From an uncultured Prevotellaceae bacterium (GTDB taxonomy: Bacteria; Bacteroidota; Bacteroidia; Bacteroidales; Bacteroidaceae): a stretch of 42,272 bases of DNA. A model generated the notes under the pieces. The model searched no databases and was not told where the DNA came from. It was given only the letters and a program-made list of their open reading frames with translations. Shown here one piece after another: positions 4,507 through 33,125 of this stretch. Within the stretch, counting starts at the first letter, position 1, and every line of letters begins with the position of its first letter. Made by a program: the position numbers and the translations under genes. The stretch is taken from assembly GCA_900318995.1 (NCBI GenBank), contig ONMR01000016.1:1-42272 (forward strand), written 5' to 3'.

Positions 4507-5142
4507 ATGAGAAGATTCCTTTGTTTTGCCATTGCTTTTTTATCGGCCACCATAACCTTTGCCCAGACCGGAGCCGAGATCGTAAACAGAATGAACCAGC
4601 GGTTATCTGACCGTAAGGCCGATGGAATTGCCATGTCTGTTGATGTAAAGATACCAATAGTAGGCACTGTAACTACCAAGACCTATTCATTAGGTAAAAA
4701 GACCCGTCTGGAAATTGAGTCGTCAAAGGTAAACACCATTACCTTTATAGACGACACACTCCAATGGACGTATGTTCCCGGCAGCAGTGAGGTGTTATTG
4801 ACCAATATCCGTCCGGGCAATGCCAATGCATCGGACAATCCGGGAATGGACGCAGGGATGTTTGATGATATACCCGAGGGTTACGATATTACAATCAAGA
4901 GCCAGAATTCAGTCAAATGGGAACTTGTCTGTAAAAGAAAGAAATCAAACAAGGACGATGATTCCCCCAAGACCATCAGCCTGGAGGTAAGGAAAGAAAC
5001 CTACGAGCCTATCAGCATGAGCACCAAGATCATGGGCATAAACTGCACCATGCACCACTTTATCTTTGGCGTGACCGAGGACAAAGTCACGTTCAATCCC
5101 GACAATTACCCCGGCATAAAAATCACCGACCAGCGAAAATGA
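4507..5142 (+). CDS. LolA-like outer-membrane lipoprotein carrier family protein
   Basis: This 211-residue exported protein has a signal peptide of about 19 residues (cleavage after TFA). The mature part is mostly beta-strand with the LolA-like pattern: an N-terminal helix (EIVNRMNQRL), then strands that include a TYSLGKKTRLE stretch and a WTYVPG segment. Family members carry lipoproteins across the periplasm, but many Bacteroidetes paralogues have no proven role. It lies seven bases after pfkA. The final codons are CGA AAA TGA, and the TGA is also the first three bases of a REP-like repeat, so the natural C terminus may have been altered. Confidence 0.75.
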   Translation: MRRFLCFAIAFLSATITFAQTGAEIVNRMNQRLSDRKADGIAMSVDVKIPIVGTVTTKTYSLGKKTRLEIESSKVNTITFIDDTLQWTYVPGSSEVLLTNIRPGNANASDNPGMDAGMFDDIPEGYDITIKSQNSVKWELVCKRKKSNKDDDSPKTISLEVRKETYEPISMSTKIMGINCTMHHFIFGVTEDKVTFNPDNYPGIKITDQRK

Positions 5143-5220
5143 TACAATTGGGGACAGACCCCTTTTGTATCATTTTGGAAAAATAGTACAAAAGGGGTCT
5201 GTCCCCAATTGTATCATTTT
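5137..5220. repeat. REPIN-like doublet between convergent lolA-like and ndk genes
   Basis: Two opposed palindromic copies (5140-5174 and 5184-5217) with AAAATGATACAATTGGGG outer ends are separated by a short A-rich spacer. The left TGA is the stop codon of the LolA-like gene. The right end runs into the TAA stop of ndk. Each core (GGGG, loop, CCCC, TTTT) could act as a weak terminator for both genes. Confidence 0.88.
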
Positions 5221-5680
5221 AGAGTTCGTCCTGGGCGTAGAGGTAGTCCAGCAGGGGTGACGGGTAGTCGCAGTAGTCACTGGGACTGAAGAAACGCTCC
5301 AACTCCGTCTGAGCTGTCTCCAATGAGTCCGATGCGTGTATGATGTTCTCCTGATGACTGACGCAAAGGTCACCGCGCACAGTGCCGGGCAGTGCCTTTC
5401 GGCCATTGGTGGCGCCGGCCATCTCGCGTACCACGCTTACGGCGTCAATACCCTCCCAGCAGCACAGAACCACGGGTGCAGCCATCATGGACTTCTCTAT
5501 TATTGGATAAAATGGTTTCTCCACCATATGCGCATAATGACGGCGCAGGATATCGGCATCAAGCTGCTGCATCTTCATGGCCACAAGCTTGAGACCGCGT
5601 TTTTCAAACCGTGATATTACCTCACCGATGAGCCCGCGCTGCACAGTGCAGGGCTTAAGTATTACAAGTGTTCTTTCCAT
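5219..5680 (-). CDS. ndk: Nucleoside diphosphate kinase
   Basis: The 153-residue enzyme transfers the gamma phosphate between nucleoside di- and triphosphates through a phosphohistidine. The N-terminal TLVILKPCTVQRGLIG contains the nucleotide-binding Lys 9. ATNGRKALPGTVRGD (90-104) is the substrate loop, and the catalytic His is 115 in NIIHASDS. Length is that of the usual short form. A sequence CAAAATTA at 5685-5692 (minus-strand -7 box TAATTTTG) lies only four bases before the ATG, so either the transcript is leaderless or another promoter is used. Confidence 0.96.
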   Translation of the reverse strand: MERTLVILKPCTVQRGLIGEVISRFEKRGLKLVAMKMQQLDADILRRHYAHMVEKPFYPIIEKSMMAAPVVLCCWEGIDAVSVVREMAGATNGRKALPGTVRGDLCVSHQENIIHASDSLETAQTELERFFSPSDYCDYPSPLLDYLYAQDEL

Positions 5681-5684
5681 GCCG

Positions 5685-5692
5685 CAAAATTA
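5685..5692 (-). promoter_or_regulatory. Possible -7 element of ndk, very close to the start codon
   Basis: On the minus strand this reads TAATTTTG, an exact TAnnTTTG match, but it lies four bases from the ndk ATG. No TTG is visible at normal -33 spacing. If real, the mRNA would start at or next to the start codon. Confidence 0.35.
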
Positions 5693-5697
5693 GTAAA

Positions 5698-5731
5698 AGT
5701 GACGCAAAGGGGTCGTTTCGTTTTGCGTCAT
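5698..5731. repeat. Second-type REP-like palindrome (TGACGCAAA type)
   Basis: TGACGCAAA (5700-5708) is repeated inverted as TTTGCGTCA (5722-5730), with GGGGTC directly after the first arm. It lies between the divergent ndk and yccF genes. Confidence 0.7.
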
Positions 5732-5748
5732 TTATACCGCAAAATTGC

Positions 5749-5756
5749 TACATTTG
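5749..5756 (+). promoter_or_regulatory. -7 element of yccF promoter
   Basis: TACATTTG is an exact -7 match 25 bases before the yccF ATG. A TTTG at 5722-5725, which is part of the REP-like repeat, lies 23 bases upstream and may serve as a slightly distant -33 element. Confidence 0.55.
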
Positions 5757-5781
5757 TGATATTAATTAAAACCTTGCAATT

Positions 5782-6159
5782 ATGAAGACATTGGGCAATT
5801 TCCTTTGGGTTATTCTGGGCGGCTTTGCAACCGCTTTGGTCTATTATCTGATAGGATTCCTCTATTGTATAACCATAATAGGCATCCCGTTCGGAGTTCA
5901 GATAATCAAAATAGGAACATTCTGCCTGTGGCCGTTTGGTCGTGAGATGGCCGATAAGCCCGGCCAGCCAGGATGCCTAAGCACCGGATTCAACGTTCTG
6001 TGGATTCTGACCGGCTGGTGGGAGATTGCAGCCTTCCATTTTGTTCTGGCACTGCTGTTCACCATCACCATCATCGGCTTCCCGTTCGGCCAGATGCACT
6101 TCAAGATCGCCCTCGGATCAATCTTCCCGTTCGGCAAAGAGATCCGCAGCGTAAAGTGA
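5782..6159 (+). CDS. YccF domain-containing inner membrane protein
   Basis: This 125-residue hydrophobic protein has two related halves. Each half has a membrane segment followed by an ITIIGIPFG or ITIIGFPFG motif and a phenylalanine-glycine motif (WPFGRE, FPFGKE). That duplicated pattern and length are typical of the YccF family (DUF307), whose biochemical role is unknown. It appears to be monocistronic with its own promoter. The stop codon TGA is embedded in the GTGACGCAAA arm of the next palindrome. Confidence 0.85.
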   Translation: MKTLGNFLWVILGGFATALVYYLIGFLYCITIIGIPFGVQIIKIGTFCLWPFGREMADKPGQPGCLSTGFNVLWILTGWWEIAAFHFVLALLFTITIIGFPFGQMHFKIALGSIFPFGKEIRSVK

Positions 6160-6182
6160 CGCAAACGCCCCCTTTGCGTCAC
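6156..6182. repeat. Second-type REP-like perfect palindrome
   Basis: GTGACGCAAA (6156-6165) and TTTGCGTCAC (6173-6182) form a perfect 10-bp inverted repeat around a C-rich loop. The TGA at 6157-6159 is the stop codon of yccF. With no T run directly after the stem, it is not a standard terminator. Confidence 0.75.
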
Positions 6183-6285
6183 TGTCCAAAAATTAGACAC
6201 TTTTGGGCAAAAAAGCACGTTTTTGCATTTTTTTCTTGGAGCGTGGTGCGCGGTGATGCTATTTTTATGGAAAACATATAGTCCT

Positions 6286-8835
6286 ATGTTCAGACATTAC
6301 ATAACCATTGCCCTGCGTAACATCAGGAAATACGCATTGCAGAACGCCGTTTGCTGCATCGGTATGGCAGCCGGACTTGTTTGCCTCAGTTTTTCCGCGC
6401 TGTGGATTCATTTTGAAGAGTCATTTGACAACTTTCACAAAGATTCGGACCGGATTTTCACTTTGCTTGAACACTCTCCCTACTCAAGTAACACTTCCAT
6501 AGAAAAATTCAGTCCGGAATTATTATCCCCGTTACTTGAATTCAGTCAGGTTGAATCATACACCAAATGGAATTACAGGAATCATGGCGATGTTAAGGAA
6601 CTGATTGCCGATACCGCATTTTTCAGTTTCTTTGATTTCAGTCTGCTCCAAGGAAACCCGATGTTCCGGCAAGACACCAACTACGTAGCCCTGTCCCAAG
6701 ACTATTCAAAAAGGCTGTTTCCCGATGGTAACGCAATAGGAAAAGAGTGCTATGGAAAAACCGTATGTGCGGTCATAGCACCTTTCCAAGGACCATCATG
6801 CCTGAGTTTTGACATACTGTGCATGCATATCTTTCCAGATATCACACCAGGGGTGATCGCCGTAATGCCGGACCAGGATGAAAACGCTCCGTTTGCAATT
6901 CCGATGGCCCCAGTTGTCTATTCACATGAGGACAGATACCCCAATGGATTCTTCAAGATTCACAAAGGCACTGATACCAAATGGCTTTCGGACTCATTAA
7001 GCAAGGTAATAGATGGGAGCCGATATTATCTTGACGCTCCCAAATATGAATTGCTGCCAATAAGTGATGTCCACAAACAGGAAGCGGCCGGCCAGATGTA
7101 TATTGGATACAAGCATGCCAGACTGTTTGCCTGGGCCAGCCTCCTGCTCACTCTATGCAGCCTGGTGAATTTCCTGCTGTTCAGCCTTAACAGGATAAGA
7201 AACAGGGAACATGAGATGGCGCTCAGAGTAGTTCATGGTGCAAACGGCAGTTCGATACTAAAGATGATGGCAACAGAGTCCGGTATCATACTGGGTACAG
7301 CATCACTTCTGGGATATCTTGCAATTATCCTGCTTAAGGACAGGTTCCGTGATATGGCTGATGCCGACATGACTGGAGGCTATGTGCTTTGGGGCGGTTT
7401 ATCGGTCATAATCATTGCATTTGCCGTTTCCGTATTAATAAGCATTATATCGCTGGGTATAGTCAGGAAAAGGACAATTCAGAGTTCCATCATCCGTAAA
7501 ACCGGCAAGAGGTTCCGTAACATAAGCATAGGAATCCAGTTGTTTGTCAGTATTCTGTTTCTGTTTGTCATTATCTGCATGCTCCATCAGTTCAGGTTCC
7601 TTAGAAACAACAACTGGGGAATCAGGATAAACGATATGGCGGTTCTTAACATAAGCAATCCCGATCATAATGATATGAATGGTTTTCAAGTGCGCATGAG
7701 TTATTCGCCCACAGATGAACGCATGCCGGATATCGAGAGCCCATCGGCCTTCATTAACCGCATAGACGGACAGTTCGGTATCACATCCCAATTGAACAGT
7801 CTGCCGTTTGTAGAGGGCGTTTACACCGATATGGGTGGATTTGATTATATCTATGAGTCAGTCGATATGATCTGGAAACACCGTGGGACCTGGATTAACG
7901 GCGATGACAACATAAGGACCAACATAGCTGGCATTATAGACACCTCCCTGCTTAAACTGTTCTCCCTGAATGTGATTGACGGAGCAATACCGACCGACAG
8001 GCCTCTCAGGGACGATGAGCTTGTAATTACCAGGAATCTCCAGCGTGAACTGGGACTTGGGGATATAACCCAAGGGCCCACCCTGACTATCAGAAGAGGG
8101 TATCGGACACTATCAAGATTAGAGTGGGTGGACGGACATCCTACAATCACAGAAGGAGAATATGCCGAAGTAACAAACATATTCCAGGTAGTAGCCGTAG
8201 TCAGTGACCTGTATCTGACTGATTTCAACAAGGAACCGGAGAGTTATATCCTATGTGCCCCAAATAACCGCAAACTGTTGGGGCAGATGGGAGGCCAATG
8301 GTCCGAAACCCATGTCAGCATCACATACCAACCTGGAAAAAGGAAAGAGCTCAGCAACAGGATCAATGAAATAATGGAGCCCACCGGACTTTCATACGAA
8401 CTCAATTATTCCGAGGATTTTTTCTATGAGAATCTCACCAAAGACCGCCATCTATCTCTGATAATAGAGATTTTGGGGATACTCTGCATGCTCATATCGC
8501 TGGCCGGCATATACTCCACAGTAGCATTGACCTGCCAGGAGAAGAAACGCGAGATTGCACTGCGCAAGGTACATGGAGCAAAGGTCCGTGACATACTGTC
8601 CATATTTGCCCGTGACTATGGTATAATCCTTGCCCTGGCATCGGCCCTGGCATTCATTATCGGATATATAATAATAGACCGATGGCAGCAGCATTTCCTG
8701 TGCAAGGCTGATATCAGTTGGTGGATATACGCTTGTGTGTTTGCCTTTACGGCAACGGTGATCATTGCCACCGTGCTGAACCGCGTTCTAACGACCGCCC
8801 GCCAGAATCCAGCAGATGTAATCAAGTGCGAATGA
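6286..8835 (+). CDS. ABC transporter permease with two MacB-periplasmic/FtsX units
   Basis: The 849-residue protein has the MacB/FtsX-type permease layout twice. A first transmembrane helix near residue 20 (after LRNIRKYALQNA) is followed by a periplasmic domain, then three helices at about 265-400 that include the HEMALRVVHGA coupling motif. A second helix near 418-440 starts the second unit, with a large periplasmic domain and three final helices after EIALRKVHGA. This is a common Bacteroidetes architecture, usually working with a separate LolD/MacB-like ATPase to export peptides or toxic compounds. No ATPase gene is adjacent. I chose the ATG at 6286 (MFRHYITIALRN) because it begins the family-conserved N terminus; 21 in-frame codons lie upstream. 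The stop codon is the first base triplet of a REP-like repeat. Confidence 0.85.
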   Translation: MFRHYITIALRNIRKYALQNAVCCIGMAAGLVCLSFSALWIHFEESFDNFHKDSDRIFTLLEHSPYSSNTSIEKFSPELLSPLLEFSQVESYTKWNYRNHGDVKELIADTAFFSFFDFSLLQGNPMFRQDTNYVALSQDYSKRLFPDGNAIGKECYGKTVCAVIAPFQGPSCLSFDILCMHIFPDITPGVIAVMPDQDENAPFAIPMAPVVYSHEDRYPNGFFKIHKGTDTKWLSDSLSKVIDGSRYYLDAPKYELLPISDVHKQEAAGQMYIGYKHARLFAWASLLLTLCSLVNFLLFSLNRIRNREHEMALRVVHGANGSSILKMMATESGIILGTASLLGYLAIILLKDRFRDMADADMTGGYVLWGGLSVIIIAFAVSVLISIISLGIVRKRTIQSSIIRKTGKRFRNISIGIQLFVSILFLFVIICMLHQFRFLRNNNWGIRINDMAVLNISNPDHNDMNGFQVRMSYSPTDERMPDIESPSAFINRIDGQFGITSQLNSLPFVEGVYTDMGGFDYIYESVDMIWKHRGTWINGDDNIRTNIAGIIDTSLLKLFSLNVIDGAIPTDRPLRDDELVITRNLQRELGLGDITQGPTLTIRRGYRTLSRLEWVDGHPTITEGEYAEVTNIFQVVAVVSDLYLTDFNKEPESYILCAPNNRKLLGQMGGQWSETHVSITYQPGKRKELSNRINEIMEPTGLSYELNYSEDFFYENLTKDRHLSLIIEILGILCMLISLAGIYSTVALTCQEKKREIALRKVHGAKVRDILSIFARDYGIILALASALAFIIGYIIIDRWQQHFLCKADISWWIYACVFAFTATVIIATVLNRVLTTARQNPADVIKCE

Positions 8836-8868
8836 TACAAAAGGGGACTGTCCCCTTTTGTACCAAAT
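8832..8868. repeat. REP-like palindrome downstream of the permease gene
   Basis: TACAAAAGGGG (8836-8846) is followed by a short loop and CCCCTTTTGTA. It is a fully symmetric variant of the family, with AAAA/TTTT inner arms instead of AATT/TTTT. TGA at 8833-8835 is the permease stop. The GC-rich hairpin followed by TTTT could also terminate transcription. Confidence 0.8.
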
Positions 8869-8900
8869 GTCCGCTTTAACAAACTTTATGTCTTGTTTTG

Positions 8901-8931
8901 TTGTCGCAATGTAATCTATTATTTACATTTG
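8901..8931 (+). promoter_or_regulatory. Promoter of the membrane protein/XRE gene pair
   Basis: TACATTTG at 8924-8931 is an exact -7 box. TTG at 8901-8903 lies 20 bases upstream. The ATG follows 33 bases after the -7 box. Confidence 0.7.
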
Positions 8932-8963
8932 CAGCATCAATAACCTATTAAAGTATCGTAATT

Positions 8964-9449
8964 ATGAAAAAGTATCATTTGCTTGACCACAAGTGGCAGA
9001 AGATTGGATTTGCAATTTTTGCTATCAGTGTCGTAATTTGTATGGTTTTTTGGGAGGCAATAATCTTTGACCTCTTCCCGATGATTAGAGTTGGTACGCC
9101 CATTGAATATTCCCCCGTTGGTCACGGATGGGCAGTTGTTGTTATTTTCTTATTGATTCCGGTATCATTTGTATTCATGGCTCTGTCACAGGAAAAACTG
9201 GAGGATGAAAGAATTGTGGAGACACGGCATCAGATATTGGCAAGGATAGTAATCTTTTTCATCGTGTTGGTATTCATAAAAACCATAGTATTTATATTTC
9301 TGGCCAGATTTCTTTCACCTACTTCCTTAGCTATGTGTAGCAGGATAATAAGCTATTGCACGGGAGTGACCGCATTCATAGGATACTATGTACTGTTTTT
9401 CAAGCTATCTTTGTGGAAACAAAACAGGGAGTTGAGCGATGAAGAATAA
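8964..9449 (+). CDS. Four-helix membrane protein (DUF2975-like), partner of an XRE regulator
   Basis: The 161-residue protein has four hydrophobic segments at about residues 13-35, 52-72, 90-113 and 123-147, separated by short charged loops. A cytoplasmic ALSQEKLEDERIVETRH segment lies between helices 2 and 3. The final codons overlap the start of a small XRE-family regulator by 11 bases. This arrangement, a small multi-pass protein translationally coupled to a YozG-like helix-turn-helix protein, is common for DUF2975 families. I do not recognise a precise function. The coupling suggests the membrane protein modulates, or is controlled by, the regulator. Confidence 0.7.
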   Translation: MKKYHLLDHKWQKIGFAIFAISVVICMVFWEAIIFDLFPMIRVGTPIEYSPVGHGWAVVVIFLLIPVSFVFMALSQEKLEDERIVETRHQILARIVIFFIVLVFIKTIVFIFLARFLSPTSLAMCSRIISYCTGVTAFIGYYVLFFKLSLWKQNRELSDEE

Positions 9450-9639
9450 CCTTAGAGTGGAGCGCGCCCGCATGCGCATGACGCAGCAGGAGCTGGCCGA
9501 TAAGACCGGTGTGACCCGCCAGACTATCGTGGCCATAGAGCAGGGCAAGTTCAATCCCTCAACCGTGCTTGCACTCAAGATGGCCCGCGTGTTCGGCGTC
9601 ACCATCGAGGCCCTGTTTGAGCTTGAGGAGACTGATTAA
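9439..9639 (+). CDS. Small XRE-family (YozG-like) helix-turn-helix regulator
   Basis: This 66-residue protein is essentially one Cro/CI-type helix-turn-helix domain: TQQELADKTGVTRQTIVAIEQGKFNPS holds the two recognition helices, followed by the ALKMARVFGVTIEALFELEE tail typical of the YozG-like group. It lacks a sensor domain. The ATG lies within the last codons of the membrane protein gene, so translation is probably coupled. Base use is richer in GC than the preceding gene. It likely regulates its own operon. Confidence 0.9.
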   Translation: MKNNLRVERARMRMTQQELADKTGVTRQTIVAIEQGKFNPSTVLALKMARVFGVTIEALFELEETD

Positions 9640-9664
9640 AAGAACATAAAAACCTTAAGTTTTC

Positions 9665-9695
9665 TTGTCAACTGCAAAACATAGTCATATATTTG
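9665..9695 (+). promoter_or_regulatory. Promoter of the DUF4424-like/FISUMP gene
   Basis: TATATTTG at 9688-9695 is an exact -7 box, with TTG at 9665-9667 at 20-base spacing. It shows that an in-frame TTG at 9665 cannot be the start codon. Confidence 0.7.
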
Positions 9696-9736
9696 CTGTA
9701 TATGTCTTATCCCTTTGTTCCAATCAAATATTCAAT

Positions 9737-11428
9737 ATGAAGAAAAAGAGCCCTAAACATCTGATTCTCATACTGATTGCCTTACTCATGGTCCTTGAAC
9801 TTAAAGCAAATGACGGTGCATTCTATGTGAACGGCAGCACGCTTGTGCCCGTCAAGGAGACCGACATCTCCATCCTGAAGGAGATTCTGACCATTACAAT
9901 AGGCAATGACGATTACGCCACGGTAGATGTTTACTACGAGTTCTTCAACCCCAAGGCACCAAAGACCATAACGATGGCGTTTGAGGCCGCTCCTCCCGGC
10001 GACTGGAACCCGGAACCCTTCAATCATGACGGAGTACATCCTTTCATTAAGGATTTCTCTGTAAGCATGAACGGCAACTCCCTGCCCCACAGCAATATGG
10101 TGGTACAGAAAGACTATCGCAAGGTGCAGAATTTCAAACCGTTGGACCTCAATGAATGGAAAGGTTACGGCGACACCATCCACTATAAAGGTGAAACTAT
10201 TATCAACTATAGTGAGGAAGATGGGTTATTCTTTGACGGCGGCAATATGGTTTATAGTGAAAAGCTGGACAGTTTTGCTTACTTTGCTTACGGTTATTTC
10301 TTTACTGCATCCTTTAACGAAGGCGTCAATACGGTACACCATACTTACCGTTACCGTACCAGTTTCACCAATTGGTCCAAGTTTGATTTCGTATATTGGC
10401 TCACCCCCGCGTCCCGATGGGCAGGAGGCAGGATCGGTGATTTCACTCTAAGGCTGATGTCCGAATCACCCCGCACGGAGATATACATGGAGAAATGCCC
10501 ATTTGACTGTAAGTATTGGAAAGCGAGTCCCGGTCAGGAACTGGTCACCTGGGCTGAGTATAAGAACGAGTATTATATGCTGGCCGACCTGTATCCTGAC
10601 AAGGTGCTTGAATGGCACAAGACGGCTTTTGTGCCGAACCAGGACTTTTGCATATACTCTCCCGAATACAACCAGCCGGATCCGTTCTTCGGTACTATGG
10701 ATGTGGTTGTGGATGATACTGACGGAAGTGTTTATCAGTATATGGGGCAGGATGACACCTACTATCATATTCTGGCCGATGGTGCCATCGGTCAGACACG
10801 CAAATCAACAAGCCACGTTGAGACCTTCATCAATAAAGGAGAGTACTCAATCAAAAGCAGGGACTCCATCATCATAACGGCAAAAAGCCCGGCCAGGAAG
10901 GCTGTAGATCTGGGGCTCAGTGTCAAGTGGGCCACATGCAACATCGGCGCGGGTGAGCCCTATGAATGCGGTAGCTACTATGCCTGGGGAGAGATCCAGA
11001 CCAAGAAGACCTATGAGAGCAATTATTTTGACCGCGAATTCAGGAAATACAATAAGAACAGCAGAACAGTACTGGATCAGTATGATGATGCTGCCCACAG
11101 GCTATGGGGCGGCGGCTGGCGAATGCCTACCAAAGATGAATTTCAGGAACTGGTTGACAAATGCAAGTGGGAATGGACCACATTGAATGGTGTTTCGGGT
11201 TATAGGGTTACCGGTACTAACGGCAGATCCATCTTTCTGCCCATTACAGGAATGAGACTCGATACCCGTTTACTGTACTCCGACACATCCGCATACTATT
11301 GGTCCGCTTCACTTGGCCCTTCAAGTTCCGAAATGGCCTGGCAACTGTACTTTAAATCAAATGAGATAAATGTCTCCGCTCTGGTCCGTTCCGTTGGCCG
11401 CGTCATCCGCCCGGTTCATCCAAAGTGA
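9737..11428 (+). CDS. Secreted protein with DUF4424-like N-terminal region and C-terminal FISUMP domain
   Basis: The 563-residue protein has a signal peptide (MKKKSPKHLILILIALLMVL, cleavage after the ELKA stretch). The mature N terminus starts NDGAFYVNGSTLVPVKETDI, which resembles DUF4424 extracytoplasmic proteins, and continues as a mainly beta domain to about residue 385. The last 180 residues are a FISUMP domain (Fibrobacter succinogenes major paralogous domain). Its hallmarks are VDLGLSVKWATCNIG, YYAWGE, GWRMPTKDEFQELVDKC, a LPITGMR segment and the final RSVGRVIRPV. FISUMP domains are thought to be surface C-type-lectin-like modules. I set the start at 9737 because the promoter lies just upstream. 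The TGA stop belongs to a GTGAC...TTTGCGTCA half-palindrome. Confidence 0.8.
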   Translation: MKKKSPKHLILILIALLMVLELKANDGAFYVNGSTLVPVKETDISILKEILTITIGNDDYATVDVYYEFFNPKAPKTITMAFEAAPPGDWNPEPFNHDGVHPFIKDFSVSMNGNSLPHSNMVVQKDYRKVQNFKPLDLNEWKGYGDTIHYKGETIINYSEEDGLFFDGGNMVYSEKLDSFAYFAYGYFFTASFNEGVNTVHHTYRYRTSFTNWSKFDFVYWLTPASRWAGGRIGDFTLRLMSESPRTEIYMEKCPFDCKYWKASPGQELVTWAEYKNEYYMLADLYPDKVLEWHKTAFVPNQDFCIYSPEYNQPDPFFGTMDVVVDDTDGSVYQYMGQDDTYYHILADGAIGQTRKSTSHVETFINKGEYSIKSRDSIIITAKSPARKAVDLGLSVKWATCNIGAGEPYECGSYYAWGEIQTKKTYESNYFDREFRKYNKNSRTVLDQYDDAAHRLWGGGWRMPTKDEFQELVDKCKWEWTTLNGVSGYRVTGTNGRSIFLPITGMRLDTRLLYSDTSAYYWSASLGPSSSEMAWQLYFKSNEINVSALVRSVGRVIRPVHPK

Positions 11429-11441
11429 CCCCTTTGCGTCA
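11425..11441. repeat. Partial second-type REP-like element at the FISUMP gene stop
   Basis: GTGACCCCTTTGCGTCA is a shortened form of the GTGACGCAAA...TTTGCGTCAC palindrome. TGA at 11426-11428 is the stop codon of the FISUMP gene. The convergent TIGR02172 gene ends three bases further on. Confidence 0.5.
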
Positions 11442-11443
11442 GA

Positions 11444-12286
11444 TTAAATGAGCATTGAGTCCGACAAGCGGTGAGCAATATCATCGGCCATTGGCTGATG
11501 AAATGCCAGGTAGTACATGTAGGCCGATTTGATGGCGGCAAAAGGCAGGAGTTTGCGTATTATCGTTCCAATCTCCTTTGGAGCGATTCCATAATAGGCC
11601 GGACCAAAGATATTCCAGTGCTGCTGCATCTGCTCAGGTGAAAGATGGAACAGCTGGTCTGTGCGCACCGGATCTGCAATCTGACTGATACGCCAGCACA
11701 GGCTAATATCCCATTCGGGAGCACCGTATGCTGACTGGCCTATATCAATCCACAGGTTACGGTGCCCGTCGGTAATTATATTACCTATCTGCATGTCGCC
11801 ATGCAGACAATAGGGAGTATCAGGTATGGTATCCAGAATAGGCAGCACCTTGTCTCTTAGAAATACTGGCACAACACCATCCTTGTGATAGAAATCCTGC
11901 ATTCTCTTTTTCATGGAGGGCAGCCTGGTGGTATCGGCCTTGACGGCATGAAGCTCGCGGGCCACGCGGGCAAAGGTTAGGCTCACCTCTTCCATCCTGT
12001 CGGGCTCCTGCGATATGATACGCGCAAACGAGCGCTTGCCTTCAATCAGCTCATACTCGGCACCTACCCTCTCGCCATCGGTTACCAGCCTGTAGGGACG
12101 GGGCGTGGGGACTCCCAGATCATACATCGCCTGCGCTGCACCAAACTCCTCCACGGCTACATCGGCCTCAAAACCGGGATTGTATAACTTGGCAAGGCGC
12201 TTTTCGGTCTTGTGGGTATAAGCCACGCCCTGACCGCCCTCACCGGTCTTTACATACTCTTCAAGATTTATCTTCTCGTAGTCCAT
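11444..12286 (-). CDS. TIGR02172 family protein, aminoglycoside-phosphotransferase-like kinase fold
   Basis: The 280-residue protein has an APH/choline-kinase-like fold. The ATP-binding N lobe starts with GEGGQGVAY (16-24) and a Lys in RLAKLY. The catalytic loop is HGDMQIGN at 162-169, with Asp 164 and Asn 169, and the metal-binding Asp is 181 in WIDIG. TIGR02172 is a sporadically distributed family first noted in Fibrobacter, with unknown substrate. It is the last gene of a four-gene operon behind glutamine synthetase, PARG and a tyrosine phosphatase; the gap to the phosphatase gene is eight bases. Small-molecule kinase activity is inference from the motifs. Confidence 0.82.
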   Translation of the reverse strand: MDYEKINLEEYVKTGEGGQGVAYTHKTEKRLAKLYNPGFEADVAVEEFGAAQAMYDLGVPTPRPYRLVTDGERVGAEYELIEGKRSFARIISQEPDRMEEVSLTFARVARELHAVKADTTRLPSMKKRMQDFYHKDGVVPVFLRDKVLPILDTIPDTPYCLHGDMQIGNIITDGHRNLWIDIGQSAYGAPEWDISLCWRISQIADPVRTDQLFHLSPEQMQQHWNIFGPAYYGIAPKEIGTIIRKLLPFAAIKSAYMYYLAFHQPMADDIAHRLSDSMLI

Positions 12287-12294
12287 AATTACAT

Positions 12295-13131
12295 TTACAT
12301 CAAATACCTTTCTCTGAGTATGGCGATGTCAGTGTCTGAGAGGCCAAGCGGACCTTTCAGGTAGTTTTGCATTGATCCGTACTGAGCATCTATCAGGTCC
12401 AGTGTCTTGACAAAATTACCGGTATTGGCGCCGATGAACGCCTGGACCACACTCAGCTCATCCTCGCGGCCGCCCATGAAACGGACGCGGCGTGACAAAC
12501 GCCTTACATCCTTAGCGTAGACTGCATTCGTTGCGTCAAAATCGGCGATTATCGTCTCCCTGTCCACCCCAAGGGCAGCCAGAATGTAGGCCGATGCCAT
12601 ACCGGTGCGATCCTTGCCCTGCGTGCAGTGAAAGAAGGTGGCTCCGCCATCGGATTTTTCAATGAGTATTCGCAGGAATCTGGCAAACCGTTTCTGACAG
12701 GATTCCAGAGTGACCATATTGGGATAGAGGTCACGGGCCACCTGCTGTGCCTTCTTGTTGAAGGCAGCAATCATTATCAGTTTCCTTACATTGAACTGCT
12801 TTTGTTTCTTTATCCCCAAGGCCTCCTCGTCATCCATCGCATTGCCGTTGCTGTTTATGGGAATGCGCACATACTCAGCGCCATCGATTATCCGGTCCTC
12901 ACGTCCCTGGAGTTCAAAATCCTGTCTGAAATCAATGACCCTGGTAACCGGAATCTGCTGCAAGTACTTAAGGTCGGCAGCGGTGGCATCGGCCAGAGAA
13001 GCGGCACGGATCAGCCTGCCGGAGCGCACGGTGCGGCCATCGGCAGTAACATAACCGCCCAGGTCACGCGCATTGATTATTCCCTTAACCGGCAGGAACT
13101 GCAGAGTCTGAATTTCTTTTTGAAACAACAT
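12295..13131 (-). CDS. Tyrosine-protein phosphatase (Y_phosphatase3 family)
   Basis: The 278-residue cytoplasmic phosphatase carries the CX5R signature HCTQGKDRTG at 168-177, with nucleophile Cys 169 and phosphate-binding Arg 175. The N-terminal NARDLGGYVT (20-29) is the family hallmark, and VIDFRQDFE follows the usual DLR-type strand. Such enzymes act on phosphotyrosine or phosphoinositides, and the substrate here is unknown. It is six bases after the PARG gene and eight before the TIGR02172 gene, so all are cotranscribed. A pairing of kinase-like and phosphatase genes suggests opposing reactions on one substrate, which is inference only. Confidence 0.9.
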   Translation of the reverse strand: MLFQKEIQTLQFLPVKGIINARDLGGYVTADGRTVRSGRLIRAASLADATAADLKYLQQIPVTRVIDFRQDFELQGREDRIIDGAEYVRIPINSNGNAMDDEEALGIKKQKQFNVRKLIMIAAFNKKAQQVARDLYPNMVTLESCQKRFARFLRILIEKSDGGATFFHCTQGKDRTGMASAYILAALGVDRETIIADFDATNAVYAKDVRRLSRRVRFMGGREDELSVVQAFIGANTGNFVKTLDLIDAQYGSMQNYLKGPLGLSDTDIAILRERYLM

Positions 13132-13137
13132 AGTCCT

Positions 13138-14097
13138 TTATCTACTGAATTCCTTGAGGAACGGCTTGAAATTGTTGCTTGACGGTGAATCAATGATTGC
13201 AAATACAATCTTTCTGAAACGGTCCACAAACTCCTCCTCGTCCAGAACCTGATGGAACAGACGCGCCATCTGGGCAGGCGGAGTGCAGAACGCCCCGCAA
13301 CCCAATGCGCCCAGCACCAGACTGTCATGCCCTTTGAGTATGCCGATGCGCAGTATGGTGCGTATCTTCTCTTTCAGCACGGGCTTATCGGCCTCCGGGA
13401 TATTGCCGTTGGCATCCAATGAGTTGTGCCCGTGCTTGGGGTTGTAATTTAATGAAGCTACCGATATCACCGCAGCCCGGAAAGGATTGTCCAGCAATAC
13501 ATAGCCCTCATCACGGGTACCTCTGAAGAACGTGATTCCCGGACTGTAGATACCGCCGTAGGTATTGTCCATCGGATACCGCTCTGCACGCCGTTTCACG
13601 CCCACCATATCGGCCAGATCACCGTATCGGCCACCCGGCAGAGAGAACTGGTATAGCGATATTGCCAGCGTGCTGCGACGGCAAAGGTCCTCCTCCTGGG
13701 CACTGGAGCCCTGCAGCACCCCGCCTCCGGGATGATACAGGCTGGCCATATTGAGCAGAGCCGGATTGTACCCCTGCTCCACCAGATCCCGCGTAACCAG
13801 AATGCAATCCTGATTCAAAACCTGAAAATGATACAATTGGGGCCTGACCCCTTTTGTATCATTTTTGATTTCGATAGGCGCGGAGAACATCTCAGAGTCT
13901 TCTACGAACGCTCCGCTGACGGGCAGTGTGACTACGCGGTCTGTCTCTGTGCGGTAGGCGCCATCACGGAAAATGTCCAGATTGTGCGTGAACACCTTGG
14001 CCAGCAACGCCCGCTTGGCATCACCGCCGCGGGATAACGATGCTTTCCACCACCCGCTGAGCCAGATCTGGCTGTTCCACTGCTGCGCCCTTAACAT
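13138..14097 (-). CDS. Microbial-type poly(ADP-ribose) glycohydrolase (TIGR02452 family) with an in-frame REP insertion
   Basis: The 319-residue protein has the PARG signature GGGVLQGSSAQEE: GGG at 124-126 and QEE at 134-136, the second Glu being the expected catalytic acid. It also has the LCRRSTLAISL helix that follows in TIGR02452 proteins and the C-terminal GALGCGAF loop of macro-type folds. It should hydrolyse ADP-ribose links on proteins. A 39-base REP-like repeat (13825-13863) is read in frame as residues 79-91 (NDTKGVRPQLYHF) between two predicted strands before the active site. The frame stays open, so activity may be kept. The start codon overlaps the glutamine synthetase stop by one base, so translation may be coupled. 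Confidence 0.88.
   Translation of the reverse strand: MLRAQQWNSQIWLSGWWKASLSRGGDAKRALLAKVFTHNLDIFRDGAYRTETDRVVTLPVSGAFVEDSEMFSAPIEIKNDTKGVRPQLYHFQVLNQDCILVTRDLVEQGYNPALLNMASLYHPGGGVLQGSSAQEEDLCRRSTLAISLYQFSLPGGRYGDLADMVGVKRRAERYPMDNTYGGIYSPGITFFRGTRDEGYVLLDNPFRAAVISVASLNYNPKHGHNSLDANGNIPEADKPVLKEKIRTILRIGILKGHDSLVLGALGCGAFCTPPAQMARLFHQVLDEEEFVDRFRKIVFAIIDSPSSNNFKPFLKEFSR
13825..13863. repeat. REP-like palindrome inside the PARG coding sequence
   Basis: The element has TGATACAATT and TTTTGTATCA arms around GGGGCCTGACCCC, the same sequence type as the intergenic copies. Its 39 bases are a multiple of three and read without a stop on the minus strand. Confidence 0.9.
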
Positions 14098-15599
14098 CAG
14101 CCTTTGTCTATGCTCTCCTCAACCAGTTTGAGCAGTCCCTTTGAGTCCAGCTGACTGCGCAGGGTCTCGTCATGGAAATCAGTAAGGAACCTGATAAGGT
14201 AATCCACAATGTTGTCCGAGAACACACCGCGTGATGTATAGATGGCGCGGTCTTTCTCAAGTTCCTTTGCAGCCTCAACGCAGCAGCCGGGCAGCTGCTC
14301 CAAAGCCTCCTGTACGGCACGGTTCTTCTCATCGTGAATGTTCACGCCCAGACCCACGTATGTCTTGTCTGCCACTGCCAGGGCATCGGGCATCTCAAAT
14401 CCGTGACGGGCGGCGCAGCAGAGTGCAGCCATGAGCAGATAAGTATCGGCAAAACCGTCGCTGGCACGCCACTCGAATGTCTGCTTGTAGCTGAAATCCT
14501 TATCCTGCGCCTTCTCAAGCGGATTACACTTGGCAGCCATATCCATACGCTTGAGCCAGCCCAGCGGAACGCGCACCAGAGCACTGCGGTTGGAGAATGA
14601 CCAGCAGAGTGATGTGGGAGCCTCCTGATGAGGAACCAGACGCATGAATGACAGCGGATGCGGGTTACCGAATGCAGGCAGTGACGTTCCGGCCACCATG
14701 TAACCGGCAATAGCCTTGCGGCACTCATCGGTCAGCTCTCCGTCACGGGTCATTACAGACTCTCCGTTGCGTGTAAACTTGCAGTGTACGTGCATGCCCG
14801 ATCCGGCCTTACCTACGGTAATCTTGGGAGCAAAGGTCAGGGTTACGCCGTACTGGTAAGCCAGCTGACGCATCACCCACTTGGCCACCACCAACTGGTC
14901 GGCGGCATCCTCTATATCGGTAGGCAGGAACTCAATCTCGTTCTGCTCATAAATCTTGCCGTCCTGGGTAAAGTTACCCACCTCGCTGTGACCGTATTTG
15001 ATAAGACCGCCGCACTGGGCAATAAGCTTCATGGCCTCGGTGCGCAGGTCCTGGAACTTGCAGAACGGAGCGCTCTCGTGATAGCCGCGCTGATCAGGTG
15101 TCAGGTAGAGGTCCTCGGCCTCGGAGATGACGTAGTACTCCAGCTCGCCCATGGCCTGCATCTCCAGGCCGGTCACAGCCTTGAACTCATTGTGAGCCTT
15201 GTGCAGTATGTACTGGGGGCTGCTCTCAAACTGGTTGCCCTCGCGGTCAAAATATGAGCAGAGCAAATCAACCGTGGGAACCTCGGCAAACGGGTTCACG
15301 AATGCGGTCTTGTAACGCGGCAGCACGTAGAGGTCACTCTTGCCTGCTTCGATGAAGGGGAACAGGCTGGAGCCGTCCACACGCTCACCGGCCTGCAGGA
15401 TGTTCTCCAGATGCTCGGCGCTGTTTATTACAAAGTTAAGGGTCTTGAGCTTGCCGTCCCATCCGCAGTAGTGCAGGTTAATGAACTGCACCGCATTCTC
15501 ACGGCAGTAGCGGACTATATCCGCACAGGTAAATTCGGCTGCGGGCTTGCCCAGAAAGCGTACCAGCAGGTTAGGGTTCATTTCAATCTTCTTGTCCAT
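14097..15599 (-). CDS. Glutamine synthetase (type I-like, Bacteroidetes form)
   Basis: The 500-residue enzyme makes glutamine from glutamate, ammonia and ATP. Visible features are GELEYY (151-156) with metal-binding Glu residues, EQNEIEFLP (218-226), the GSGMHVH catalytic loop (266-272), NPHPLSFMRLVPHQEAP with the conserved Arg, and NRSALVRVP. The Tyr loop used for adenylylation in enterobacterial GlnA (NLYDLPPEE) is not visible. It is close to Bacteroides 'glutamine synthetase family' proteins as I recall them; a gamma-glutamyl-amine ligase role cannot be excluded. It is the first gene of the operon with PARG, phosphatase and kinase-like genes. Confidence 0.88.
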   Translation of the reverse strand: MDKKIEMNPNLLVRFLGKPAAEFTCADIVRYCRENAVQFINLHYCGWDGKLKTLNFVINSAEHLENILQAGERVDGSSLFPFIEAGKSDLYVLPRYKTAFVNPFAEVPTVDLLCSYFDREGNQFESSPQYILHKAHNEFKAVTGLEMQAMGELEYYVISEAEDLYLTPDQRGYHESAPFCKFQDLRTEAMKLIAQCGGLIKYGHSEVGNFTQDGKIYEQNEIEFLPTDIEDAADQLVVAKWVMRQLAYQYGVTLTFAPKITVGKAGSGMHVHCKFTRNGESVMTRDGELTDECRKAIAGYMVAGTSLPAFGNPHPLSFMRLVPHQEAPTSLCWSFSNRSALVRVPLGWLKRMDMAAKCNPLEKAQDKDFSYKQTFEWRASDGFADTYLLMAALCCAARHGFEMPDALAVADKTYVGLGVNIHDEKNRAVQEALEQLPGCCVEAAKELEKDRAIYTSRGVFSDNIVDYLIRFLTDFHDETLRSQLDSKGLLKLVEESIDKG

Positions 15600-24329: not shown

Positions 24330-24335
24330 AAGATA

Positions 24336-25730: not shown

Positions 25731-25765
25731 TTTATAAGTGTTAAGTTGTTATTAATTCGGGAAAA

Positions 25766-26341: not shown

Positions 26342-26382
26342 AGGTTAGAAACAATTATTGGTTTGTTAAACAATTTGAACAT

Positions 26383-26466
26383 GTCCTTAAAACAGGACCA
26401 CTTTTGTACAAAAATAGTGATTCCTTCGGATTAATGACACTCAGCAAAGAAAAAAAAGTAACTTTG
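26383..26466. promoter_or_regulatory. Divergent promoters of nfeD-flotillin (minus) and the Crp-like gene (plus)
   Basis: Minus strand: TATTTTTG (26409-26416) is an exact -7 box overlapping the perfect palindrome TTTTGTACAAAA (26402-26413). A GTCCT...AGGAC dyad at 26383-26398 lies in the nfeD leader. Plus strand: TAACTTTG (26459-26466) is an exact -7 box 28 bases before the chosen ATG of the Crp-like gene. Confidence 0.55.
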
Positions 26467-26494
26467 CGTGATTTTAGGAATCAATCCGTGCATT

Positions 26495-27160: not shown

Positions 27161-27162
27161 CA

Positions 27163-29198: not shown

Positions 29199-29207
29199 GC
29201 CGGATTG

Positions 29208-29498
29208 TCAGCGAAGCACAATCTGGGTTATTACCTGCGCTCCAGCCTGTGCGTTCAAACGGGCTACGAGCTCCGTGCGGCGCATCATCAGTTCATTCCT
29301 CAATGCCGCCGATGACACTGTCACAAAAAGCACCTGATTATAGATACGGAGTTCCTTTGTATATCTGGAGACGGCAGGCCCCAGGACCTTATCCCATGCC
29401 TGGATAAGACGATGCTCATACAGCGGTGTCTCCAGACCATACTCACGGAGATACTGCATGATCACGCCTCCTATTTTTTCGGAGTCAGTCTTTCTCAT
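29208..29498 (-). CDS. DciA-family protein (DUF721)
   Basis: The 96-residue protein matches DUF721/DciA, the helicase operator proposed to load the replicative helicase in bacteria lacking DnaC. The conserved WDKVLGPAVSRYTK and the VLFVTVSSAALRNELMMRR segment fit the family KH-like domain. It overlaps the recF gene by four bases, so the two replication-linked genes form an operon. It converges on the CtpA gene with nine bases between. Confidence 0.9.
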   Translation of the reverse strand: MRKTDSEKIGGVIMQYLREYGLETPLYEHRLIQAWDKVLGPAVSRYTKELRIYNQVLFVTVSSAALRNELMMRRTELVARLNAQAGAQVITQIVLR

Positions 29499-30586: not shown

Positions 30587-30610
30587 TCAGTTGATTGCAA
30601 GTTTGATATG

Positions 30611-30689
30611 CGAATTTACTTTCTTTTCCCCGATATCGACTCTTTTTTAAGTCAAATTGTTTACATAAAGTAAAAAATGACTATTTTTG
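30611..30689. promoter_or_regulatory. Divergent promoters of recF (minus) and the TPR gene (plus)
   Basis: Plus strand: TATTTTTG (30682-30689) is an exact -7 box, with TTG at 30657-30659 at 22-base spacing. Minus strand: TAAATTCG (30611-30618) is a near match 24 bases before the recF ATG. The rest of the 125-base gap shows nothing else. Confidence 0.5.
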
Positions 30690-30711
30690 CACCCGCTAAC
30701 AAAAAGACGAA

Positions 30712-31401
30712 ATGGCAAAGAAAACAGTAACCCCTGCACCCAAGCAGGAACAGAAGGGCCTTGAAGAGGCATTAAGCAAGTCAGAACAGTTTTTTGAGAA
30801 CAACAAGAAGACTATCTTCGGTGCTCTCATAGCAATCATAGTAATCATTGCAGGCTGCATGCTTTACAGTGCAAAAGTAGCTCAGCCGCGTCAGTTAAGG
30901 GCTTCAGAGGCAATTTATCCCGGTGAGGCATATTTTGTCAACGGAGATTACCAGACCGCCCTAAACGGTGATGCTTACGGATTTGAAGGTTTCATATCCC
31001 TGTCAGAGCAGTACAAGAGTACCAAGGCCGGAAAGCTGGCAGGTCTTTATGCAGGTCTCTGCTACGCTCAGCTTGACAGCATGAGCATTGCCGAGAAATA
31101 CCTGGCCAAGTTCAGCGGAAAGGATCAGATGGTTGCTCCTGCAGCTGTCGGCGCGCTCGCCAACTGCTATGCTACAAACGGCCAGTTAGACAAGGCCGCC
31201 GCCACTTTTGAGAAAGCCGCAAAGCAGGCAAACAACAACCTGCTCTCACCCAATTTCTATTTCCAGGCAGGTCTCATCTATGAGTCTATGGGTAAGACCT
31301 CACAGGCCCTTAAGCTTTACAATCTGGTCAAGACCAGCTATCCTGCATCTTTTGAATCACAGGATATTGACAAATATATTTCCCGACTTTCAAGCAAATA
31401 A
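30712..31401 (+). CDS. Membrane-anchored tetratricopeptide repeat protein (YfgM-like)
   Basis: The 229-residue protein has a cytoplasmic tail of about 35 residues, one membrane segment (about 36-53, FGALIAIIVIIAGCMLYS) and a periplasmic TPR region of four or so repeats (AGKLAGLYAGLCYAQLDSMSIAEKYLAKF; VGALANCYATNGQLDKAAATFEKAA; FYFQAGLIYESMGKTSQALKLYNLV). The layout matches YfgM-type chaperone-associated proteins. In Bacteroides it commonly lies beside the recF-DUF721 pair. A tRNA-Tyr gene follows. Confidence 0.85.
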   Translation: MAKKTVTPAPKQEQKGLEEALSKSEQFFENNKKTIFGALIAIIVIIAGCMLYSAKVAQPRQLRASEAIYPGEAYFVNGDYQTALNGDAYGFEGFISLSEQYKSTKAGKLAGLYAGLCYAQLDSMSIAEKYLAKFSGKDQMVAPAAVGALANCYATNGQLDKAAATFEKAAKQANNNLLSPNFYFQAGLIYESMGKTSQALKLYNLVKTSYPASFESQDIDKYISRLSSK

Positions 31402-31420
31402 AGCCTTGACAGGTCAGGCC

Positions 31421-31503
31421 GGGTGAATTCCAGAGTGGCCAAATGGGGCAGACTGTAAATCTGCTGTCTTTCGACTTCGGTGGTTCGAATCCATCTTCAC
31501 CCA
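31421..31503 (+). tRNA. tRNA-Tyr (anticodon GUA)
   Basis: A seven-base acceptor stem pairs GGGTGAA (31421-31427) with TTCACCC (31496-31502), with discriminator A at 31503. The anticodon GTA is at 31455-31457. The long variable arm marks a class II tRNA. The T-arm GGTTCGAATCC is canonical. No CCA is encoded. Confidence 0.95.
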
Positions 31504-31510
31504 CAAAAAC

Positions 31511-31535
31511 AGGCGTCCAAGCGGGCGCCTTTTTT
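31511..31535 (+). terminator. Terminator of tRNA-Tyr
   Basis: AGGCGTCC pairs with GGGCGCCT around AAGC (one G-T pair), and T runs follow. It starts eight bases after the tRNA. Confidence 0.85.
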
Positions 31536-31578
31536 GTGTGGGCAGAGATGGATTCGGTCAAACCATTTAAAAAAACAC

Positions 31579-31586
31579 TACCTTTG
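31579..31586 (+). promoter_or_regulatory. -7 element of the proC promoter
   Basis: TACCTTTG is an exact -7 box 22 bases before the proC ATG. No clear -33 TTG is seen. Confidence 0.6.
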
Positions 31587-31608
31587 CACAACCAAACATT
31601 TCAATGAT

Positions 31609-32397
31609 ATGAAGATCACGATTATCGGCGCCGGAAACATGGGAGGCGCAATTGCCAGAGGATTTGCAGCTAAAAAGGTTTTTGCAGCCAAGGATATTAC
31701 CTGCTGCGACCGTAGTGATGCCACACTTGAAGGTCTCAGGAAGGATGTTCCGGGTATCGGAATATCAAAGGAGAACGCAAAGGCCGTCAAGGGTGCCGAC
31801 ATTGTCCTGTTTGCCGTAAAGCCATGGATATTGCCATCGGCCGTAGAGGAGGTAAAAGAAGCACTTGATTACAAGAAGCAGCTTATCATATCAATTGCTG
31901 CAGGTGTTGGCCTGGACAAACTTGCAGAGCTATTTGAGAAAGGCTCCGACAAGGCACAGGTAGTTTACCTTATCCCCAACATAGCTGTTGAGGTTGGCGC
32001 AGGCGTGTTCTTCTATTGCTCAAACACCGCCACAAAGAAGAATCTGGACCTGATACAGAAACTCTTTGGCCAGGTAGGTTTTGCCAAGCAGGTTGAGGAG
32101 AAGCAGATGACCGCAGGTACAGCACTTGCATCATGCGGTATAGCATATGTATTCCGATACATCCGCGCCAACGTTGAGGGCGGCGTAGAGATGGGATTCT
32201 ACCCCAAGGATGCTCAGGAGATTGTTCTGGGAACCATCAAGGGTGCTGTTGAACTGCTGCTTGCACACGGTTCACATCCCGAGCAGGAGGTTGACAAGGT
32301 AACCACCCCCGGCGGTATCACCATCAAGGGTCTTAACGCCATGGAGGAGGCCGGATTCACCAACGCCGTAATCAAGGGTCTTAAGGCCGGCAAGTAA
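31609..32397 (+). CDS. proC: Pyrroline-5-carboxylate reductase
   Basis: The 262-residue enzyme performs the last step of proline synthesis. MKITIIGAGNMGGAIARGF (NADPH-binding Rossmann motif GAGNMG at 7-12) marks the start. VVYLIPNIAVEVGAG is the family core, and a PGGITIKGLNAMEEAGF segment near the C terminus is the P5CR signature. The open frame extends 43 codons upstream through the tRNA and terminator, so ATG 31609 is the real start. The next gene overlaps the stop by one base. Confidence 0.96.
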   Translation: MKITIIGAGNMGGAIARGFAAKKVFAAKDITCCDRSDATLEGLRKDVPGIGISKENAKAVKGADIVLFAVKPWILPSAVEEVKEALDYKKQLIISIAAGVGLDKLAELFEKGSDKAQVVYLIPNIAVEVGAGVFFYCSNTATKKNLDLIQKLFGQVGFAKQVEEKQMTAGTALASCGIAYVFRYIRANVEGGVEMGFYPKDAQEIVLGTIKGAVELLLAHGSHPEQEVDKVTTPGGITIKGLNAMEEAGFTNAVIKGLKAGK

Positions 32398-32981
32398 TGA
32401 AGCTGGTATACTTTCACGGATTCATGTCATCAGGGGCAAGCGGGACTGTAGAGAGTCTCCGCCATATGCTCCCCGAGCTCGAGGTCGTAGCCCCCGATAT
32501 TCCGGTCGATCCCGCCGAAGCCCTGCCCTATCTCAGGCAGTTCGTAGAGGAACAGAAGCCCGATATCATTGTGGGTACGTCAATGGGAGCAATGTATGCC
32601 CAGCAGATGTTCGGCTACAGGAAGATATGCGTGAACCCATCCTTCAACATGTCCACCATGTCAAAGGTTATGAAGGCTAACACCACCTACCCTTTCCAGA
32701 ACGGACGCAAGGACGGAGCCAAGACATTCAAGATTACCGGACAGATTGTAAAGAATTTCAATATGATGGAGCGCCAACAGTTCAAGGGTATCACTGATTT
32801 TGACCGCGAGAACACCTATGGCCTCTTCGGCAACCACGACACCACCGTAAACTGCTACGACCTGTTCAAGAAGCACTACCCCAACGCCCAGCACTTTGAA
32901 GGAGAGCACCGCCTCAACGACAAATCCCTAAAGACAGCGGTAGTTCCCCTAATCAAACAAATCCTGGGAATCAGCAAATGA
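32397..32981 (+). CDS. YqiA/YcfP-like alpha/beta hydrolase
   Basis: The 194-residue protein belongs to the small UPF0227/YqiA-type esterase group. The N-terminal YFHGFMSSG matches the HGF start of these proteins, the nucleophile motif is GTSMGA (60-65, Ser 62), and FEGEHRLND near the C terminus holds the likely catalytic His. The substrate is unknown; thioester or ester hydrolysis is the family expectation. It overlaps proC by one base. The last codons are AGC AAA TGA, and the TGA is the start of a REP-like repeat. Confidence 0.82.
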   Translation: MKLVYFHGFMSSGASGTVESLRHMLPELEVVAPDIPVDPAEALPYLRQFVEEQKPDIIVGTSMGAMYAQQMFGYRKICVNPSFNMSTMSKVMKANTTYPFQNGRKDGAKTFKITGQIVKNFNMMERQQFKGITDFDRENTYGLFGNHDTTVNCYDLFKKHYPNAQHFEGEHRLNDKSLKTAVVPLIKQILGISK

Positions 32982-33125
32982 TACAATTGGGGACAGACCC
33001 CTTTTGTACCATTTTCAGCCCAAGTTAGATTAGAATCAAAATGCAAATAGCCTCCAGAGCATAATCTAGAGGCTATTTTTACAAAATAGTACAAAAGGGG
33101 TCTGTCCCCAATTGTATCATATTTT
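32976..33125. repeat. REPIN-like doublet with an enclosed terminator
   Basis: Opposed REP-like copies (32979-33014 and 33086-33122) share the TGATACAATT/GGGG core with the other loci. The left TGA is the stop codon of the hydrolase gene. The 70-base spacer is longer than in the other doublets and holds a perfect hairpin. Confidence 0.88.
33045..33080 (+). terminator. Intrinsic terminator inside the REPIN-like doublet
   Basis: AAATAGCCTC (33045-33054) pairs perfectly with GAGGCTATTT (33069-33078), followed by more T residues. It would end the proC-hydrolase transcript. Confidence 0.75.

Follow-up and report, generated by a model that had tools for sequence, protein, structure and literature searches.

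Palindromic repeats that supply the stop codons of adjacent genes in an uncultured Prevotellaceae bacterium

The GTAG repetitive extragenic palindromic (REP) sequences are, in the parts of PMC3733652 and PMC2817692 that describe them, short palindromes found as monomers and inverted dimers near gene 3′ ends; their termini often supply a TAG stop to flanking open reading frames (ORFs), according to a passage in PMC3733652, and REPs lie very near or immediately downstream of the stop of the rayt gene, according to one in PMC2817692. Passages in PMC3733652 also describe the TIRYT transposases, with GGGGWSAS inverted repeats on either side, and the legends of its figures 8 and 9 point out flanking repeats that run over the 3′ ends of transposase genes. 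Here we describe two types of palindromic repeat, A and B, in a stretch of 42,272 nucleotides from an uncultured Prevotellaceae bacterium (GenBank GCA_900318995.1, contig ONMR01000016.1, positions 1 to 42,272; hereafter the window) and in the rest of its genome; of the gene ends that meet a repeat, about half take the repeat's stop as their own. The phenomenon is known in kind, since GTAG REPs supply stops and terminal inverted repeats (TIRs) overlap transposase 3′ ends in the part of PMC3733652 that treats them. Our literature search, outside which most subscription papers fell, returned no report of the present Bacteroidales repeat family, and as far as the searches show, the two-sided TGA/TAG edges in a Bacteroidales TIR family, the tally at base resolution, the null model and the formation of TAA through the A-run are new.

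Type A has the sequence AAAATGATACAA(NN)GGGG...CCCC(NN)TTGTATCATTTT, many edges carrying TAG (as TAGTAC) instead of TGA; copies are either monomers or inverted dimers, the latter about 79-86 bp long. Type B is TGACGCAAA...TTTGCGTCA with a core of varying length; a short form of about 16 bp (TGACCCCTTTGCGTCA) stands at 11426 in the window and recurs at another locus (L064), where both edges serve as stops. The long type B forms at C13:127, C21:26431 and C22:123340 of the same genome contain the inner segment CAGTCGCTTCGCTTGGTAAAAGCGTCCCTTCGGGCCGAGCGC or a near variant. Because 60 of 84 inner or non-facing type A edges, which end no gene, carry a stop triplet (inner 32 of 40, outer without a facing gene 28 of 44), the stop is part of the element itself. 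As with GTAG REPs, the termini serve as stops for flanking ORFs, but the GTAG tag outside the stem is absent, the usual edges being AAAATGATACAA and AAAATAGTACAA, inside the paired stem; here TGA or TAG stands at both edges, so that both of two convergent genes can be served, the A-run provides a terminal Lys as well as a split TAA, and the distances are base-exact and accompanied by a simulation and orthologues. The dimers of 79-86 bp, present at many sites in several genomes, recall REPINs, in which the inverted doublet is the replicative unit and, in the part of PMC3116915 concerned, looks like the mobile unit; the dimers here differ in sequence and may be a comparable unit. E. coli REPs, of which PMC12306157 in part gives an account, share a hairpin that abuts the stop, but theirs is described as lying downstream of the stop whereas the hairpin here contains it.

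Repeats were located in the draft genome (G000; 2.50 Mb, 86.8% complete) by patterns, namely TGATACAAWWGGGG (89 matches), GTACAAWWGGGG (78), TGACGCAAA (70) and about 100 of 182 TACAANNGGGG; diverged copies, such as the dimers at C24:36078 and C14:30252, escaped the patterns, as did the short type B form at 11426. A codon-usage gene caller written for the analysis was run on the 75 stretches around the matches and gave 434 genes in 530 kb, window included. For every outermost repeat edge facing a gene on the same strand we took d, the offset of the edge triplet from the stop codon of that gene, within -60 to 400, leaving out dimer inner edges, non-facing edges and type B matches that lack a B-like edge. 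The 90 facing type A edges gave d=0 in 42, d=5 in 11 and d=6 in 7, the others being scattered, and 13 of the 31 facing type B edges were at d=0; random distances between repeat and stop, named beforehand as the outcome that would speak against stop supply, did not occur in this genome-wide count. The last codon of genes at d=0 is Lys in 34 of 42 type A and 9 of 13 type B cases, compared with 74 of 313 control genes (Fisher p = 6e-13 and 9e-4), among which TGA accounts for 147 of the 313 stops.

The window is contig C35 of this genome. A reading made from the letters of the window (the sequence-only reading) had proposed that five plus-strand genes end on the first triplet of a repeat, and this is exact in every case (5140-5142, 6157-6159, 8833-8835, 11426-11428 and 32979-32981), with Lys before the TGA in four of the five as it had stated (AAA at 5140, AAG at 6157, AAG at 11426 and AAA at 32979; GAA at 8833). 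The impression that base-exact stops belong to the plus strand only is peculiar to the window, as d=0 is found on both strands elsewhere in the genome. The minus-strand ends that face repeats in the window lie at d=5 (ndk), d=5 (a gene of 280 amino acids), d=1 (a gene of 837 amino acids, facing a decayed copy) and d=70 (33119), and the TAA of ndk consists of its own T and an AA from the repeat's A-run. The features are as follows, the repeats being given without strand.

4507..5142, plus strand, LolA-like gene; stop TGA from the repeat; 28 bits to NCBIfam LolA1_Flavo, below its cut-off of 100; no Pfam match
5136..5220, type A inverted dimer; left TGA (5140) ends the LolA-like gene, right A-run completes the ndk TAA
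5219..5680, minus strand, ndk, nucleoside diphosphate kinase (PF00334)
5697..5733, type B element between the ndk start and the yccF start
5782..6159, plus strand, yccF-like gene (PF03733); type B TGA as stop
6154..6184, type B element; TGA 6157-6159 ends yccF
6286..8835, plus strand, FtsX/MacB-like permease (PF02687, PF12704); repeat TGA as stop; last codon GAA; start from the custom gene caller
8830..8867, type A monomer; TGA 8833-8835 ends the permease gene
9737..11428, plus strand, gene called FISUMP in the sequence-only reading; Lcl_C-like, below the Pfam cut-off; ends AAG TGA; start from the custom gene caller
11423..11444, shortened type B; TGA 11426-11428 ends the FISUMP gene; other edge 5 nt beyond the stop of a minus-strand gene
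32397..32981, plus strand, UPF0227/YqiA-like gene (PF05728); ends AAA TGA on the repeat
32976..33015, type A element; TGA 32979-32981 ends the YqiA-like gene
33083..33123, second type A element; faces the end of an AMP-binding gene at d=70
404..430, decayed type A-like element where the minus-strand gene of 837 amino acids ends
3402..3497, type A dimer; lies upstream of PFK, away from any gene 3′ end
13825..13865, type A element within a PARG-domain gene (PF10021), translated in frame as residues about 79-90

Genes that enter a type A repeat near their 3′ end do so in the stop frame in 42 cases and read through in 2 (d=-44); with a third read-through (d=-158) included, the bias against the one-third expectation has p = 4e-17, which supports in-frame rescue as the account of the frame bias. 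The inner edge of a dimer can catch a second frame, as in two convergent G000 genes at C22 and a gene of the related species G035 at the same slot; one gene end in another relative, G003, likewise lies at d=-44, with a tail encoded by the repeat and the dimer inner edge as the second-frame catch. As repeat-free convergent genes are closely packed (median gap 18 bp in G035, n=111), insertion was simulated at every position with the G035 gaps, a copy being kept if it cost at most 1, 2, 3 or 5 codons, tolerances of our own choice, and gave an in-frame stop. At convergent pairs d=0 was observed in 26 of 57 edges, against 1-6% simulated (9-23% with equal weight per junction), and at tandem pairs in 15 of 29, against 1.5-7%; four further edges, located where a contig or stretch ends, fall outside the pair-type comparison, and one of them is at d=0. 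Chance, by which common Lys-TGA ends and tightly packed convergent genes would bring stop and repeat together, could draw on the short gaps and on the control frequencies of TGA and Lys given above, but a simulated share of 1-7% by position, and of at most 23%, makes it hardly credible, as the sequence-only reading had surmised, and on the simulation we rejected chance together with compact packing. Whole intergenic replacement, a possibility raised by convergent pairs in which both genes end at d=0, was also set aside, plain insertion being sufficient for many of them given the short repeat-free gaps. Some convergent pairs differ by hundreds of bases between species.

One gene in the genome, at C6, matches Y1_Tnp (PF01797, 45 bits, over the cut-off of 23). 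Its translation has NHVH and YVHQNP, seen by eye, and thus the HUH motif and catalytic Tyr of TIRYT/TIRtron transposases; against NCBIfam REP_Tyr_transpos it scores 56 bits, below the cut-off of 80. Type A repeats (GGGGACAG) flank it on both sides, as TIRYT/TIRtron genes are flanked, with the 89 exact TGATACAAWWGGGG ends across the genome, and its own stop is the TAG of a repeat (d=0). A Y1 HUH gene between GGGGWSAS inverted repeats (here GGGGACAG and GGGGTCAG), with scattered and paired copies, is the arrangement that parts of PMC3733652 and PMC6006769 give for TIRYT/TIRtron elements; stop supply to other genes is, in the part of PMC3733652 concerned, described for GTAG REPs, and the family here is that of an uncultured Bacteroidales. 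From a set of RAYT relatives in which 80 of 423 loci were kept, eight share at least 71% identity with this transposase, and by eye five of these end exactly on a repeat edge, while two stop inside the core of the repeat and one stops just short of it. Plausibly, the stop arose where the transposase ORF terminates in its own terminal repeat, and solo copies then carried it along. At the Prevotella-type RAYT loci L217-L220, L225 and L249 the gene runs into a downstream palindrome and stops at a TGA in the distal arm (GTCCCCTGATC).

We consider it likely that the repeats are solo TIR copies of a transposase of the RAYT/TIRYT kind and that their edge stops rescue insertions at gene ends. They would be solo monomers and inverted dimers of the TIRs of a single-strand HUH/Y1 transposase, each edge, an A-run followed by TGA or TAG, bringing a stop on both strands. 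A gene into which a copy landed a few bases from its end would survive if the edge stop were in frame (d=0), or alternatively if the A-run completed a split TAA or TGA (d=5-6), and host genes would gain a rewritten end, typically Lys-stop. This explanation starts from the base-exact stop supply, the frame bias, the stop triplets intrinsic to the edges and the transposase that ends in its own repeat; it would have the transposase move the copies and purifying selection filter them by frame, and the repeats may also have a terminator-like role.

Across 37 genomes of the genus the exact type A end motif is counted 0 to 90 times per genome, and 23 of them have it. In G003, where 20 stretches were taken, 14 of 30 facing edges lie at d=0. 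The arms in G035 are a variant, A' (TACCATTGGGG), in which d=0 occurs in 8 of 38 facing edges, equal to 8 of the 16 edges that have TGA or TAG. The other 22 of the 38 lack a stop triplet, 14 of them having GAG, and at 14 of these 22 the gene ends at d=6-7 with the A-run completing TAA or TGA; the A' counts past the stop are 10 at d=6, 5 at d=7 and 1 at d=8.

Eleven type A genes at d=0 were paired by hand with an orthologue that has no A, A' or B element at its stop, nine from G035 and two from G029/G030, at 65-98% amino acid identity. The native stops of these orthologues are TAA in seven, TGA in three and TAG in one, which argues against a fixed TGA target; insertion into TGA or A-TGA, one of two options raised in the sequence-only reading, is thus not supported, and TGA as a required target was rejected. 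Relative to the orthologue, the G000 stop is unmoved in five genes, one codon later in two, one codon earlier in three and two codons earlier in one. Six of ten orthologues of Lys-ending G000 genes lack a terminal Lys, so that this residue is often an imprint of the A-run. Stop shifts thus number 6 of 11 at d=0, compared with 0 of 8 hand-picked repeat-bearing genes at d≥5 (p = 0.018); before loci with another repeat were removed, the hand count was 7 of 12 against 0 of 12. Two of the repeat-free G035 ends (C9 and C12) have another, GGGAC-containing hairpin slightly downstream.

Several points weigh against solo TIR copies with rescuing edges as a full explanation. Transposition itself is not among the observations. 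No transposase partner was looked for in the case of type B, and the sole Y1_Tnp gene sits among type A copies. Since at least 8 of the 14 G003 slots at d=0 also bear a repeat in G000 (C40:27893 does not), the replication in G003 is mostly not independent. The stop shift in 6 of 11 genes is not significantly above that of repeat-free control pairs (20 of 62, p = 0.18); shifts of tens to hundreds of codons among those 20 look like contig-end or alignment cases. We therefore dropped stop shifts as proof of stop replacement, and orthologues alone do not prove it; the alignment of gene ends proposed earlier as a check found TGA at only 3 of 11 repeat-free stops and a shift no greater than in controls, though one that differs from genes at d≥5. 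The repeat family at a given gene end often changes from one species to another, so that old slots turning over, as opposed to fresh insertion, may account for some of the pattern. Finally, simulated random insertion fails to produce the peak at d=0, so the frame filter alone is insufficient, and insertions past the stop, which should be harmless, are yet rarer than those at or inside it (type A edges number 1 at d=7 and 1 at d=8, against 11 at d=5 and 7 at d=6), which makes in-frame rescue an incomplete explanation. The earlier suggestion that only insertions restoring a stop survive is supported by the frame (42 against 2) but leaves this drop in density unaccounted for. Site preference, a position-dependent function, or both are needed for the peak: placement at the stop as opposed to the 3′ flank calls for an added insertion preference or for selection of hairpins that abut the stop.

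A site preference, in which the transposase, or the single-stranded DNA it uses, would insert within about 10 nt of a stop while frame selection trimmed the survivors, is in our view possible but doubtful. The density per base is highest at or inside the stop codon and falls right after it, both for type A in G000 and for A' in G035, tandem pairs show the excess at d=0 given above, and the same base-exact slot is occupied by different families in different species; slot sharing, however, is explicable by inheritance, no common target sequence was seen by eye at the matching orthologue positions, the native stop is not fixed as TGA, and A-runs blur the exact junction by a few bases. We attach similarly limited credence to functional selection, under which the hairpin would be a terminator or a translation-coupled 3′ signal and copies would be kept only if they abutted the stop. 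The hairpins are stable, the predicted RNA fold being -14.6 to -23.8 kcal/mol for five monomers (shuffle z -4.2 to -7.0), -61.6 kcal/mol for the type A dimer 5136..5220 and -15.5 kcal/mol for the type B element 6154..6184, and in type A an A-run precedes and a T-run follows. Outer type A edges face a gene end in 94 cases against 44 others, one G035 orthologue (C15:140729) has by eye a terminator-like hairpin in the slot, and E. coli REPs can cause ribosome stalling when they lie within 15 nt of a stop, as reported in part of PMC12306157. Stalling, however, would more likely be harmful, orthologues manage without repeats, and a terminator consensus scan of positions 3000-15000 flagged no repeat and gave no excess (11 against 10.0 expected). 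Rather unlikely, to our mind, is an outright gene-end-seeking element that would insert preferentially at stops, rebuild them in both directions and re-terminate two convergent genes by one insertion, with dimers serving the second frame.

The end of the LolA-like gene holds A, A' and at least three other variants across species; four of its six relatives end on a clear repeat edge, and in L080 and L090 it ends by eye on sequence resembling another repeat family. At the slot C33:44997 the repeat is B in G000 but A' in G035, each placed base-exactly at the stop, and at C6:13145 it is A' in G000 but A in G003. This points either to in-place conversion of old slots or to repeated landing at certain ends. 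The copy at C33:129626/129703 lies at d=0 on both sides in G000 and at 6 and 10 in G003, as would be expected if copies landed anywhere in the 3′ flank and later deletions brought the repeat stop to the gene. The junctions differ in both directions, however, the change being opposite at C26:126045 (d=0 in G003 and d=10 in G000, with an apparent small duplication), and slow erosion of this kind is not favoured, because 9 of the 17 G000 type A ends with a repeat-free G035 orthologue are already at d=0; we regard it as improbable.

The preferred explanation, a TIR family with rescuing edge stops, suggests how an abundant non-coding repeat can stay nearly harmless in a packed genome, namely by carrying its own stop codons, which were perhaps inherited from the end of the transposase gene. 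The last residues of many unrelated proteins are rewritten, which matters for C-terminal annotation and orthologue comparison, and the stop-codon peak, together with species that have different arms at the same slots, makes a testable system for RAYT-type transposase choice versus selection.

Shared slots have TACAATT/TACAAAA or TACCATT arms according to species, as if rewritten towards the dominant family of each. The loci that differ in this way between G035 and G000/G003 are listed with the G035 locus first.

L155 (14263) and L007
L160 (621 and 4611) and L003
L164 (12428) and L034
L117 and L043
L132 and L020
L182 and L003

At C14:19075 (L011) a G000 gene ends on a type B TGA, and in its G003 orthologue (L178) the reading frame continues through a type A repeat, out of frame with its stop, so that the repeat encodes an added tail. 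Only some species have the LolA-like gene between PFK and ndk (genus loci L079-L096); in those without it, PFK and ndk lie on either side of one repeat (L083, L085) or their stops abut (L096).

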